A stretch of 64,000 bases of DNA, from the NCBI GenBank assembly GCA_017514975.1, contig JAFWIF010000035.1:62001-126000 (forward strand), written 5' to 3'. Position 1 is the first letter of the stretch. Each line of letters starts with the position of its first letter. Position numbers and translations under genes: made by a program. The notes below the pieces were generated by a model. It ran no database searches. It saw only the letters and a list, made by a program, of their open reading frames with translations, and was not told the origin of the DNA. This document shows, one piece after another, positions 299 through 9,540 of this stretch. The DNA is from Candidatus Saccharimonadota bacterium (GTDB taxonomy: Bacteria > Patescibacteriota > Saccharimonadia > Saccharimonadales > Saccharimonadaceae).

Positions 299-3495
<3,197 letters not shown>

Positions 3496-3554
3496 ACACG
3501 ATTCCGTTGCAATCGCTATAAAATTTTGTAACAAAATTACTCCCACCCCTATAA

Positions 3555-3592
3555 TTAGCACTCTTGACATTCGAGTGCTAAAAAATTACAAT
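3555..3592 (+). promoter_or_regulatory. CIRCE operator fused with the clpC promoter
   Basis: TTAGCACTC (3555-3563), nine bases, then GAGTGCTAA (3573-3581) is a perfect match to the CIRCE inverted repeat bound by the heat-shock repressor HrcA. The nine-base spacer contains the -35 box TTGACA (3564-3569), and TACAAT (3587-3592) follows after exactly 17 nt as the -10. HrcA bound here would physically cover the -35. Predicted transcription start is near 3599, giving a leader of about 22 nt before the clpC start. Confidence 0.95.
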
Positions 3593-3620
3593 AGATATAT
3601 AGCAAAACGGAGTAATCATC

Positions 3621-6092
3621 GTGGACGAATTTAGTGAAATCATGAATCATTTAAGCGAAAACGCTCGCTTTGCTCTCCAAAAAGCCGACTATTATAGCAA
3701 GCGCTATAACCAAGGCTATATGGGTACAGAGCATTTGCTTATGGGTATCCTTGCGCAAGATATGAGTACTGGCGCTAAGTTATTGCGCGACGAAGGCATT
3801 GACCTTAATAAGCTCGAGCGCGCACACGGCAAGGTCGCAGTCGATGTGCCGGCTGCGCCGATGGCGATGATGTCTCTTTCCGAGGCGACAGTTTTGACTT
3901 TGCGTATGTCGTTAAATTTTGTGCGCGAAAATGGCTTAGAAATAGTCGGCACCGAGCATATTGTCTATGCGATTTTACGACAACCCAATTCGCGCGCTGG
4001 CGTACTCCTCTCGAAACTGGACGCCGATCTTGACGCAATCGCAACAAATATCGAAAATCTTGTCGAACAGCAAGCAAGTGAAGCAAAGATGGAGAAACAA
4101 AAACAAAAAGCCGGCAAGCGCACTAATTATCGATTCTTGTCTAAATACGGTACTGACCTAACCGAACTCGCCAAATCCGGAAAACTCGATACGGTCGTTG
4201 GGCGCGATCAAGAAATCGAACGCGCCGTCACCGTTCTTTGTCGTCGCACAAAAAGCAACCCTGTCTTGATTGGGGAAGCCGGCGTCGGCAAGACCGCTAT
4301 TGTCGAAGGACTTGCGATGCGCATTGCAAAAAATGATGTGCCAGGAAAATTGATTGGTAAGCGTCTTTTTCAGATTGATCTAAGCTCAGTTGTGGCTGGT
4401 ACAAAATTTCGCGGTGAATTCGAGGAACGCATCAAGGGAATTATCGACGAAGCTGTCGGCGACGAATCTGTAATTCTTTTTATCGATGAGCTTCATCTAT
4501 TGGCTGGCGCTGGCTCCGCCGAGGGCAGTATGGATGCCGCAAATATCCTCAAGCCAGCACTTGCGCGCAATCAGCTAAAACTCATTGGCGCTACGACTTT
4601 TGATGAATATCGAAAAAATATTGAAAAGGACAAGGCGCTTGCTCGCCGTTTTCAAACAGTTATCGTTAATGAACCCTCTCCTGTTGTTACTTTGCGTATT
4701 CTTAAAGGTATCAAGGGTCATTACGAGCAACATCATCAAGTTACAATTTCCGATGCGATCCTCGAAGAGGCGATTGCGCTTTCCGAACGCTACGTCGCTG
4801 ATCGTTTTTTGCCAGACAAGGTGATTGATATTATCGACGAAGCTTCCGCGCTTGCTCGTGTCGCCCTCGATAAAAAGGGCGGCAGCACTTACAAGAAGAT
4901 CAAAATCGAACTCGCCGATTTGGAATCAAAAATTGAACTCGCGGCCGAAAATGAAGATTACGAGAAGGCCGCAATGCTCAAAACTCGCGCCGCTCAGCTC
5001 GAAGAAGAGATTACTAAGCTCGAAAAAGCCAATCGTGAGCTCAAAGAGGTTCCAGCTGTCACTTCGGACAATCTCGCAACGGCAATTAGCCTCAAGACCG
5101 GTATTCCTGTGAAGCGCGTACGCGGCTCAGAGCAGGAGCTCCTAACACATCTCGAGGCTCACCTCGAAAAGGCTATCATCGGCCAAAATGATGCTATTAA
5201 AGTAATTAGTAAAGCGATTCGCCGCGGTCGTTCGGGCATTGCGGATCTGCGTCGCCCGATCGGTTCATTTATCTTTATGGGGCCAACTGGCGTCGGTAAG
5301 ACCGAGCTTGCGCGCGTTATTGCGAAAGAGGTGTTTGGCGGCGAGGACGCATTGATCAAGATTGATATGTCCGAGTTTGGTGAAAAACACAACGTTTCTC
5401 GCCTCGTCGGGGCACCTGCTGGCTATGTGGGCTACGAAGACGGCGGCAAATTCACCGAGCAAATTCGTCGGCGCCCTTATTCTGTAGTGCTGTTTGACGA
5501 GATTGAAAAAGCACACCCTGACGTTTTTAATATGCTTTTGCAAATTTTGGAAGACGGTACTTTAACGGACGGCCAAGGCACGAAGGTCAAATTCAACAAT
5601 GCGATTATTATCTTGACGAGCAATCTTGGCTCCGAATCTATGTATCGCGAATCCGAGATGGGTTTCACTGCAAAAACCGCCAAAGACGCTAAAGCGCTTG
5701 CGGCCGAACATGCCGTCAACGAGGCTGCCGCTATGAAAGCACTGCGCAAAGTTATGCGCCCAGAATTAATCAATCGTTTTGATGCTGTTGTAACCTTCCA
5801 TGCGCTCACTGCCAAAAATGTCGAAAAAATCTTTGACAACCTTATCGAAGATCTTAAAAAACGCCTCGCTACTAAGTCAATCGGTCTCCAGCTAACTGCT
5901 GCCGCCAAAAAGCATTTGATTGAAGTCGGCTACGATCCAAAAAATGGCGCTCGTCCTTTGCGTCGCGCTATTGAAGATGAGCTCGAGACTCTCTTGGCTG
6001 ATGCGATTCTGTCTGAAGATCTCAATAAAGGCGATATCGTCAAAGTCGACTACAAGTCCGACAAACTCACCTTCTCTCTCGCCAAAGAATAG
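3621..6092 (+). CDS. clpC: ClpC-type AAA+ unfoldase, regulatory partner of ClpP
   Basis: The 823-aa protein has the ClpC architecture: an N-domain with two Clp_N repeats (about 8-145), AAA1 with Walker A GEAGVGKT (218-225) and Walker B ILFIDE (285-290), a middle domain with a UVR-like coiled coil (about 430-475), and AAA2 with GPTGVGKT (554-561) and [11 protein letters not shown]. The tripeptide MGF (680-682) sits where ClpP-binding loops usually carry VGF or IGF, so it should dock ClpP, encoded at 7488. The start is GTG at 3621, supported by GGAG at 3609-3612; an ATG 21 bp downstream would cut into the N-domain. Transcription is from the CIRCE promoter, predicting heat or misfolding induction through HrcA. 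The McsB/CtsR partners that control ClpC in Firmicutes are not in view. Confidence 0.96.
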
Positions 6093-6111
6093 ACGGCGAG
6101 CACGTCTTTCT
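6091..6111 (+). terminator. Possible weak terminator after clpC
   Basis: AGACG and CGTCT form a 5-bp stem around a 7-nt loop, followed by TTTCTTT, directly at the clpC stop. The stem is short and the T tract is interrupted, so this is only a candidate. Confidence 0.35.
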
Positions 6112-6200
6112 TTGGTCGCTATATCTTGTGCTCTAGAATGACTATTTGAAAAACACAAAAACCCCTCAAGAATCCTGCCAAAACAGCAGTCTATTCTTTC

Positions 6201-6229
6201 ATTATATCACATATAGCCAAAAAAGTCAA
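6201..6229 (-). promoter_or_regulatory. Strong orphan promoter on the minus strand between clpC and the HExxH gene
   Basis: Read on the minus strand, TTGACT (6229-6224), 17 nt, then TATAAT (6206-6201) with an extended TGTGA element form a near-consensus promoter. Nothing recognisable lies downstream on that strand: the transcript would run from about 6194 through a small CTGC/GCAG hairpin and T-rich stretch and then antisense to the clpC 3' end. An 88-codon antisense open frame from TTG at 6158 has a GAGGGG before it but no coding features I trust. Confidence 0.7.
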
Positions 6230-6290
6230 GCAAAAGCTTTAATAAACGCAGCAATTATGATACGATAAGATAAGAAACTACACAATAACT

Positions 6291-7409
6291 ATGGACGAAT
6301 CTCTAAACCTCAATTCCTCTCAGCCCCAAAATCCTGCTCCCTATTCTCAAAGCCCCAATAACCCCCGACTATCCCAAAACCAACCCTACGTCGAACTTTC
6401 TCCAGGCGCCTCGCCAAGCCAAAAAAAGCGCAAAAAAGTTCGCCGTTTACTCTTATTTATTTTCATACTTGCAGTTTTGGGCTTTACCTATTTCTTTGTC
6501 GATTACCGCGCTATTATTGATACGATTGCCGGCATAGGATACACTCCAGACGCCACCATGTCTCAGCTAATAGAACGCATCTCTCTGTCTGATTCCGGCG
6601 ATCGCATCTTGCGCGCTTCACGTCCACAGCTTGAGGACAAAACTAGTTTCAATCAACATTGCCCGACCGTGAGTGCAAAAACCTCAACTCTGGGCTGCTA
6701 TTATGCGCGCCACATCTATGTCTATAATATCCAAAACGACGATCTCGACGGTATTCGTGAAGTTGTGCTTGCACACGAGTTGCTTCATGCGGTGTGGCAG
6801 CGTATCGACTTACGAACGCGCAATGACACTATCGCTCCTCTTTTGACTGAAGTGTATCATGCGCATCGCGACTTGCTTGAGTCGCATATGGAATATTACG
6901 AAACTGACGACCAACTCGACGAACTTCACTCGGTAATCGGCACGCAGATTTCCCCTGATTTAATGCCGGGTGCACTACGTGAACATTACGAACGGTATTT
7001 TAGCGATCATCGTGCGATTGTCTCATTATACGATCAATACAACGGTCGGTTTATGGCGCTCAAGTCGCGTTCTGATGAATTAGCCGCTCAGATTTCAGCT
7101 AAAAAAACCGCAATCGAGACAAAGACTTCTGCCTATCAAACAAGCTACGAACGACTCAATGCCGACATCGAGGACTTTAATTCGCGCGCCCAAGACGGTT
7201 ATTTTTCGAGCCAATCCAACTTTACTGCCGAACGGAACTCGCTCATCGCGCGCCAAAATCGCTTATCCCAAGAATATGCGGCGCTTTCTCGTCTCGTCGA
7301 CGAAGCCAATCAGCTGGTTGCCGAGTATAATAAAACCGTCATTCTTCAAGAAGAGCTCTATAGCAGCATCGATAGCTCTGCGCCCGCTCCAAACACGCTT
7401 GACACTTAA
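6291..7409 (+). CDS. Membrane-anchored putative metallopeptidase with HELLH motif
   Basis: The protein (372 aa) begins with a Pro/Gln/Ser-rich cytosolic stretch and a KKRKKVRR stop-transfer signal, followed by one transmembrane helix (about 51-72), so the rest should face outside. HELLH at 162-166 matches the zincin HExxH signature, and a DELHS segment about 45 residues later (E211) could give the third ligand of a gluzincin. The C-terminal third (about 255-350) is heptad-rich and likely coiled coil. I cannot name a family. It lies between clpC and clpP but has its own upstream region, with an extended -10 (TGA-TACGAT, about 6258-6266). The fusion of an exposed zinc motif with a coiled coil suggests envelope protein turnover, which is inference. 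Confidence 0.7.
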   Translation: MDESLNLNSSQPQNPAPYSQSPNNPRLSQNQPYVELSPGASPSQKKRKKVRRLLLFIFILAVLGFTYFFVDYRAIIDTIAGIGYTPDATMSQLIERISLSDSGDRILRASRPQLEDKTSFNQHCPTVSAKTSTLGCYYARHIYVYNIQNDDLDGIREVVLAHELLHAVWQRIDLRTRNDTIAPLLTEVYHAHRDLLESHMEYYETDDQLDELHSVIGTQISPDLMPGALREHYERYFSDHRAIVSLYDQYNGRFMALKSRSDELAAQISAKKTAIETKTSAYQTSYERLNADIEDFNSRAQDGYFSSQSNFTAERNSLIARQNRLSQEYAALSRLVDEANQLVAEYNKTVILQEELYSSIDSSAPAPNTLDT

Positions 7410-7431
7410 CGCCAAAGCTCCAAAGATTACA

Positions 7432-7469
7432 TTAGCACTCTTGACCTCCAAGTGCTAAAATGCTACAAT
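7432..7469 (+). promoter_or_regulatory. CIRCE operator fused with the clpP promoter
   Basis: TTAGCACTC (7432-7440), nine bases, AAGTGCTAA (7450-7458): a CIRCE element with one mismatch in the right arm. As at clpC, the spacer carries the -35 (TTGACC, 7441-7446) and the -10 TACAAT (7464-7469) is 17 nt downstream. AAAAGGAGG follows as the ribosome binding site. Confidence 0.93.
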
Positions 7470-7487
7470 AACCGAAAAGGAGGAACC

Positions 7488-8072
7488 ATGAAAAACTATC
7501 TAGTCCCAACTGTCATTGAAGAAAACAACCGTGGCGAGCGCGCCTACGATATTTATTCGCGTCTTTTGAAAGAGCGCGTGATTTTCCTCGGTGAAGACGT
7601 CAACCCTCACACCGCCAACCTCGTCGTCGCCCAGCTTCTCCATCTTGCCTACGAAGACCCGAAACAAGATATCAAGCTCTATATTAACTCCCCCGGCGGA
7701 TCTGTTTATGACGGCCTCGCCATTATTGATACGATGAACTATATCGAGCCTGATGTACAGACGATCGGTATTGGCCTCCAGGCTTCGATGGGCGCGATGC
7801 TCCTCTCCGCAGGTACAAAAGGCAAGCGTTTCGCTCTTCCGAATGCTCGTATCATGATTCATCAACCTAGCTCTGGCACTGAGGGCAAAATTACCGATCA
7901 GGAAATCGCCCTCAAAGAAGGAATTTATCTGAAAAAGGTTCTTATCGACATGCTCGCAAAGAATACCGGCAAAAAACCCGCCGAAGTCGAAAAAGCTATG
8001 GATCGCGACAACTGGATGTCCGCCGAAGAGGCCAAAGCTTTCGGCCTCATCGACAAGGTCATCGAAAAATAA
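7488..8072 (+). CDS. clpP: ATP-dependent Clp protease proteolytic subunit ClpP
   Basis: ClpP forms the serine-protease barrel fed by ClpC. The 194-aa product has the complete catalytic triad: S100 in [11 protein letters not shown]125 in IMIHQPSSG and D174 in [11 protein letters not shown]. Length is normal. The ATG at 7488 is preferred over an upstream in-frame codon at 7452 because AAAAGGAGGA stands 4-12 nt before it and because the upstream codon lies inside the CIRCE operator. Sharing the same operator design as clpC, the two subunits should be induced together although separated by another gene. Confidence 0.97.
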
Positions 8073-8135
8073 TCGCAATCCCAAATCACTCTTTGCGGAA
8101 ACGCCATCAAAAAATAGCCGCAAGCCAAATTGCGG
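8073..8135 (+). repeat. Two imperfect tandem copies of a small hairpin-forming unit
   Basis: After the clpP stop, a unit with arms CGCAA/TTGCG (8074-8078, 8093-8097) is followed by a shorter near-copy with CCGCAA/TTGCGG (8118-8123, 8130-8135); the flanks GGAAACGCCATC and GGAGACGTCATC also match. Each unit can fold as a hairpin. They lack T tracts, so they are poor intrinsic terminators; a local duplication or mRNA-stabilising structure is possible. Confidence 0.6.
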
Positions 8136-8166
8136 AGACGTCATCCTCGTGTTCTCCGCTCTATGC

Positions 8167-8172
8167 TAAACT
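8167..8172 (+). promoter_or_regulatory. -10 box for leaderless radA
   Basis: TGC-TAAACT is an extended -10 ending 6 nt before the radA ATG, so transcription should start at or next to the start codon. There is no Shine-Dalgarno sequence. No convincing -35. Confidence 0.55.
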
Positions 8173-8178
8173 ATAACT

Positions 8179-9540
8179 ATGTCAAAGCCAAAATCGCGAT
8201 TTATCTGCCAAAACTGTGGCGCTAGTTACGCCAAATGGGCTGGCCGTTGCGAAAATTGCCAAGAATGGAACACTCTCCTCGAGCAAGTCGCCCCGACCGA
8301 ATCCGAAGCCAAAAGCGCCCTCGCTCGTGGCGCCGTCTCGGGCAAAAAACTCGCCACCGCCTCAATCAATTCTATCGAGCCTTCCGATAAACAGTCCCGT
8401 CTCTCGACTAATTTTCCCGACCTCGATACTGTACTGGGCGGCGGCATTTTGCTTGGCTCTGTTAATCTTCTCGCCGGCCAACCAGGCATCGGCAAGTCAA
8501 CCCTCCTAATGCAAATTTGTTCCAATGTCGCCAGTCAAGGTAAGGCTGTCCTCTACGTTTCTGGCGAGGAATCCGCCGGCCAAGTCAAGCTCCGCGCGCT
8601 TCGCCTCGGCGCCTCTTCCGAAAAACTCCATTTCGCCAGCTCAACTTCAGGCAACGACATCGCAAAAACTATCGAAACCGGCGATTACGACCTCGTCATC
8701 GTCGACTCGATCCAAACCCTCTCGCTCGCCGAAATCAGCTCCGCCCCAGGCACCGTCAGTCAAGTCAGTAACTGTGGTAACCTCCTCATTCGCGCCGCCA
8801 AAGCTACCGATACCGCCGTTATTATTGTCGGTCATGTCACTAAAGACGGTACGCTCGCCGGCCCAAAAGTCCTCGAACACCTCGTCGATGTCGTCCTTAA
8901 CTTCGAAGGCGACCGCTACGGCGGTTTTAAAACTGTCCGCGCCGTCAAGAACCGCTTTGGCTCCACTGTCGAAGTCGCAATCTTCGAGATGGCAAGTAAT
9001 GGCCTCCAGGAAGTCAAAAACCCTAGCGAAGCTCTTCTCGCCGAGCGCCAAAACACCGACGGCAGTATTATTATGGCAACTATCGAAGGCGCTCGCCCTC
9101 TTCTTGTTGAAATTCAGGCTCTCGTTAACCCCACTAACTACGGCTACCCAAAACGCACCGCGTCCGGTTTCGATCTCAATCGCCTCAACCTTCTAATCGC
9201 TGTCCTCGAAAAGCGCACCAAGCTCAAACTCCAGGATAAAGATATTTTCATCAACGTCGTCGGTGGACTCAAGCTGAATGATAGTGCTGCTGATTTGGCA
9301 ATCTGTATGGCTATCGCCAGCGCAGCCGCAAGTCGCAAATTAGCCGACAAGTTAGTCGTCTTCGGCGAGGTCGGCCTAGGTGGCGAAATCCGTAGCGTCT
9401 CTTCTCCCGATCGTCGTATCGCTGAGGCAAAAAAGCTTGGTTTTACGGGCGCAATCGCACCTGCTACCATCAAAGACAAATTTGTTTTACCGATTACCGA
9501 TTTGCGTTCGGCGCTTGTCAAGTACATGAATCAAAAGTAG
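8179..9540 (+). CDS. radA: DNA repair protein RadA (Sms)
   Basis: RadA is a DnaB-like helicase that extends recombination intermediates. The 453-aa protein has an intact N-terminal zinc finger (C10, C13, C24, C27), Walker A GQPGIGKST, the RadA-specific KNRFG motif and the Lon-like C-terminal domain. The retained four-cysteine finger contrasts with LigA and RpoC in this same window, where the zinc cysteines are gone. The ATG at 8179 lies 6 nt after a -10-like box and has no SD, so the mRNA is probably leaderless. With dprA at 18.7 kb it suggests a working transformation/recombination pathway. Confidence 0.96.
   Translation: MSKPKSRFICQNCGASYAKWAGRCENCQEWNTLLEQVAPTESEAKSALARGAVSGKKLATASINSIEPSDKQSRLSTNFPDLDTVLGGGILLGSVNLLAGQPGIGKSTLLMQICSNVASQGKAVLYVSGEESAGQVKLRALRLGASSEKLHFASSTSGNDIAKTIETGDYDLVIVDSIQTLSLAEISSAPGTVSQVSNCGNLLIRAAKATDTAVIIVGHVTKDGTLAGPKVLEHLVDVVLNFEGDRYGGFKTVRAVKNRFGSTVEVAIFEMASNGLQEVKNPSEALLAERQNTDGSIIMATIEGARPLLVEIQALVNPTNYGYPKRTASGFDLNRLNLLIAVLEKRTKLKLQDKDIFINVVGGLKLNDSAADLAICMAIASAAASRKLADKLVVFGEVGLGGEIRSVSSPDRRIAEAKKLGFTGAIAPATIKDKFVLPITDLRSALVKYMNQK

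Follow-up and report, generated by a model that had tools for sequence, protein, structure and literature searches.

The window examined here is a 64-kb stretch of DNA from a Saccharibacteria MAG (39 contigs totalling 885,703 bases; completeness 94%) and carries the genes of both Clp protease subunits on the forward strand. clpC (3621-6092) encodes the Clp protease ATPase, a protein of 823 amino acids with a Clp_N domain, two AAA domains, AAA_lid_9 and ClpB_D2-small. Its best matches among solved structures are ClpC proteins (E about 1e-211), to which it is closer than to ClpB, and a UVR-like stretch as well as an MGF loop were spotted by eye. clpP (7488-8072) encodes the proteolytic subunit (194 amino acids; CLP_protease, PF00574, E 2.4e-75; NF001368 above its cut-off). 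Behind clpC, a weak terminator-like stem is located at 6091-6107 (+), such sites being no commoner than expected from shuffled sequence. A few genes upstream of clpC, positions 2-298 of the window encode the C-terminal end of an HtpX-like peptidase of the M48 family.

Operators and promoters of clpC and clpP

CIRCE/HrcA and Clp are both textbook systems. CIRCE sites were searched for with the consensus pattern TTAGCACTC-N9-GAGTGCTAA, mismatches being counted over the 18 arm positions. At 3555-3581 (+), 39 bp ahead of the clpC start, the sequence TTAGCACTC-TTGACATTC-GAGTGCTAA forms a perfect CIRCE with 18 of 18 consensus arm bases. Its 9-base spacer contains the -35 hexamer TTGACA (3564-3569), which is followed after 17 nt by the -10 hexamer TACAAT (3587-3592). 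Both the exactness of the arms and this placement of the promoter elements had been claimed in the first-pass annotation and are confirmed here. Within the region 3300-8200, TTGACA-17-TACAAT is the best sigma-70-type site on the forward strand, and its score of 11/12 is equalled by one site on the opposite strand. Translation of clpC initiates at the GTG at 3621, with a GGAG ahead of it. A weaker promoter-like site, TTGTAA-18-TATAAT, was found upstream in the window at 3526-3555, and transcription of clpC may therefore start earlier. In this case CIRCE would lie over the start region and repression could still be possible.

A second CIRCE, which is absent from the first-pass annotation, is present ahead of clpP at 7432-7458 (+), with the sequence TTAGCACTCTTGACCTCCAAGTGCTAA and 17 of 18 consensus arm bases. 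Promoter scoring and direct reading revealed a clpP promoter built like that of clpC, with the -35 TTGACC (7441-7446) within the CIRCE spacer, a spacing of 17 nt and the -10 TACAAT (7464-7469), followed by the ATG of clpP at 7488. When up to three mismatches are permitted, only 0.02 CIRCE sites would be expected by chance in the 64-kb window, as compared to the two found.

HrcA and CIRCE sites across the genome

The gene for the repressor, hrcA, which the first-pass annotation had proposed to look for in the rest of the genome, is present on the same contig as clpC (L010:2630-3439). Its product has both the winged-helix and the C-terminal HrcA domain; it matches PF01628 (E 4.6e-21, 74.5 bits) and the winged helix-turn-helix family PF03444 (E 4.5e-7, 29.9 bits), and the latter part also matches the solved HrcA of T. 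maritima (1STZ, E 6e-18). Against TIGR00331 it scores 187 bits, just below the cut-off of 197.2. The protein is short, with 269 amino acids as compared to 338 in 1STZ; since the HrcA frames matched across the phylum mostly have 230-275 amino acids, this shortening by about 70 residues relative to T. maritima looks general in the group. HrcA was detected in 279 of 290 genomes of the class, and the 11 genomes without a match are perhaps in some cases incomplete assemblies.

For CtsR, the other regulator named in the first-pass annotation, the outcome was negative in all 295 class genomes searched, the present one included; as positive control, the same search found CtsR in Lactococcus lactis. 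No CtsR box (RGTCAAANANRGTCAAA) is located within 14 kb of clpC, and the number of such boxes in the whole window is at chance level. Control of clpC by CtsR was accordingly rejected. The same applies to control by a heat-shock sigma factor, as the genome contains a single gene with sigma-70 region 2 (PF04542), and to control by HspR, a typical form of which would have shown up as a MerR_1 gene; none was detected in the genome.

Across the genome, six CIRCE-like sites with up to three mismatches were found, every one of them before heat-shock genes: two at dnaK and one each at groESL, hrcA-grpE, clpC and clpP. The sites before groESL and dnaK had likewise been named in the first-pass annotation as something to be sought. 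A reversed control pattern yielded no site genome-wide at the same threshold. The weakest site is the one of hrcA (three mismatches), and the groES site has two. On direct reading, all five promoters have the -35 within CIRCE and a spacing of 17 nt to the -10, with the hexamers TTGACA/TACAAT for dnaK, TTGACA/TAAACT for groES and TTGCCA/TAAAAT for hrcA. At groES the -35 runs over into the right CIRCE arm, which costs one arm mismatch. The CIRCE-like site overlying the hrcA promoter, through which hrcA might regulate itself, is degenerate, and congeners are similar in this respect. The dnaK promoter (L008:3939-4013) carries two perfect tandem CIRCEs, one around the -35 and the other just past the -10.

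In five further genomes, CIRCE sites with up to two mismatches are located before dnaK, groESL, hrcA, clpC and clpP, and among these genomes also before dnaJ (three), hsp20 (two), a ClpB-like ATPase (one), ftsH (one) and an FMN reductase (one); single weak sites in this set may be chance matches. Some of the 2-mismatch matches in relatives (L257, L264, L266) probably are. The ftsH site, which is CIRCE-like with two mismatches and lies 24 bp ahead of the gene in genome G089 (L259:2076-2102), might bring the membrane protease under HrcA as well. The site in genome G021 is a 1-mismatch CIRCE (L253:1501-1527) before the gene of the NADPH-dependent FMN reductase, a candidate target which is not a chaperone.

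Conservation of the operator and its embedded -35

The close relatives used for comparison were Saccharibacteria MAGs. CIRCE is present with at most three mismatches at all 80 clpC loci of the nearest relatives, where it is mostly perfect, and it also precedes clpC in all 26 families of the same order (one or more genomes per family). In the other orders of the class it was found in three of ten readable families (f28, f30 and f32), while f27, f29 and f33-f37 have no CIRCE directly upstream of clpC; f31 was left out of this count, as its clpC match (L237) does not include the N-terminus. In other classes of the phylum, in which HrcA is common, CIRCE precedes clpC at 3 of 19 clpC loci, and a phylum-wide trait was therefore rejected. 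Counted at any position, CIRCE occurs in 294 of the 295 genomes of the class, as compared to near-zero counts of the control pattern. Judging from this distribution, the clpC CIRCE is a lineage-specific and strongly kept trait. One genome of family f27 (G001; L272:410-2029) has a perfect CIRCE before a gene which was assigned by eye from its sequence as nusA-like. As clpC lies about 100 bp behind this gene, it may still be reached from that CIRCE, an arrangement which suggests that HrcA acts on nusA and clpC as a pair in an order other than that of the window.

Among 30 class genomes, 23 have a CIRCE before clpP itself and three have clpP directly behind clpC, so that 26 of 30 show either an own CIRCE or a place directly behind CIRCE-clpC; neither was seen in the remaining four. 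At the 80 close loci, clpP has its own CIRCE in 20 cases and directly follows clpC in 45, is situated about 1 kb behind clpC with no site in 11, and lies outside the locus in four.

The motif TTGAC or TTGCA was found in 77 of the 80 close clpC spacers, as compared to a mean of 1.9 (maximum 9) in shuffled spacers, in 25 spacers of 29 order-wide loci (0.7 when shuffled) and in 18 spacers of 23 clpP sites (0.5 when shuffled). The loci are kin and the counts therefore not independent, but each family contributes just one genome or a few to the order-wide set. A distance of 17 nt is the best spacing to the -10 in 75 of the 80 close relatives, and the best -10 is mostly 16-18 nt off even if the -35 occupies another register of the spacer. 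At clpC, the arms, TTGAC/TTGCA and the -10 are conserved and the flanks are not. On the basis of these comparisons, the -35 within the operator is under selection.

Of the 80 close relatives, approximately 62 have the start codon of clpC just 6-9 nt past the -10, from which leaderless mRNAs are predicted. The same is predicted for the hrcA of the present genome (L010:2618-2632), with a start codon 6 nt past the -10. The clpC of the window differs from these, having a leader with a Shine-Dalgarno sequence.

Proposed control by HrcA and comparison with known systems

Most probably (roughly 87%), the clpC element is an HrcA operator placed around the -35, and HrcA alone would repress both the chaperones and the Clp protease. 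From the anatomy of the promoters we infer binding, repression and heat induction in the following way. An HrcA dimer would occupy both CIRCE arms and, by covering the -35 between them, deny access to the housekeeping sigma factor and RNA polymerase. Upon loss of HrcA, or when unfolded protein titrates away GroEL, which helps HrcA to fold, clpC would be derepressed and released jointly with clpP, dnaK, groESL and hrcA-grpE. The GroEL-titration step is modelled on other bacteria, B. subtilis among them (Mogk et al., 1997, as cited in PMC7737663). HrcA would hereby fill the role which CtsR has on the clp genes of Bacillota.

A different weighting of the same elements is conceivable, in which the clpC CIRCE is real and HrcA merely trims the basal level, the main control being exerted by another, undescribed regulator or post-translationally. 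This would fit a co-culture study of TM7x, in which most chaperones shift between phases and no TM7x clp gene is named in the passages considered (PMC10768705). We nevertheless regard it as unlikely, given that the other known heat-shock regulators were not found (CtsR in none of 295 genomes, one sigma-70 gene, no MerR_1 gene) and that near-perfect arms over 26 families imply strong selection.

Still less probable is a function of the inverted repeat as RNA, namely as a stem in the 5′ leader altering mRNA stability, instead of as DNA operator. Such a role has a counterpart in B. subtilis, where CIRCE sits in the transcribed leader and also influences mRNA stability. Here, however, CIRCE spans the -35 and stops short of the -10, so that it would not be part of the transcript of the embedded promoter, for which reason the RNA-leader function was rejected for this promoter; in many relatives, moreover, the predicted start codon 6-9 nt past the -10 leaves no leader at all. 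A chance match or a functionless relic can be practically dismissed, being already refuted by the conservation at 80 of 80 loci and throughout the order, next to the low chance expectation for the window and the near-zero counts of the control pattern genome-wide.

Extending HrcA control of the clp genes to all Saccharibacteria is a considerably bolder step, towards which we only lean slightly. HrcA would then be the sole transcriptional heat-shock regulator of the group, acting on DnaK, GroESL, DnaJ, Hsp20, ClpB, ClpC, ClpP and in places FtsH by a single design with the -35 in the operator spacer, CtsR, HspR and a heat-shock sigma factor being missing.

The regulon shares the operator consensus, HrcA and the predicted targets groESL, dnaK and, less clearly, hrcA-grpE with the class I HrcA/CIRCE regulon of B. 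subtilis, Chlamydia and delta-proteobacteria. It differs from the latter in that clpC and clpP would be core members and that the -35 is situated inside CIRCE at all five promoters read. In delta-proteobacteria, only groESL is constantly under HrcA, and the Clp genes are under sigma-32 (PMC545781). With the CtsR class III regulon of Bacillota (clpC, clpP, clpE, clpB) it has the targets clpC and clpP in common, but neither the regulator nor its box near clpC. The division drawn in the first-pass annotation, with CIRCE/HrcA on groESL and dnaK and clpC under CtsR, holds for Bacillota, but HrcA precedents exist for single clp genes: clpP of Streptococcus salivarius is reported to be under dual HrcA/CtsR control (cited in PMC3842655) and clpL of Lactobacillus gasseri under HrcA control (cited in PMC3192767). 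Control there is shared with CtsR or concerns single genes, whereas here HrcA alone would act on both protease subunits and order-wide. The HrcA regulon of Mycoplasma (dnaK, dnaJ, clpB, groESL, lon; PMC7737663) likewise belongs to a reduced genome and extends to a protease, yet this is Lon instead of ClpC/ClpP and the lineages are unrelated. In Actinomycetota (Bifidobacterium), clp genes are also under dedicated transcription regulators, in this case ClgR/HspR beside HrcA (PMC9004370); these regulators are different ones, and no MerR_1-type gene was detected in the present genome.

Since individual clp genes are already on record as HrcA targets in other bacteria, the novelty concerns the composition of the regulon and not its mechanism. 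What appears to be new is an HrcA regulon that took in ClpC and ClpP and became fixed across an order. A search of largely open-access literature for work on HrcA in Saccharibacteria, Patescibacteria or the CPR yielded nothing relevant, which indicates that hardly any work exists on how the heat-shock response is controlled in the Candidate Phyla Radiation. For these epibiotic, minimally regulated bacteria, the arrangement described here offers a complete and testable wiring of one repressor and one operator for chaperones and protease, in which class I control would be seen taking over class III genes. In cultured strains such as TM7x, it predicts that clpC and clpP would go up together with groEL upon heat.
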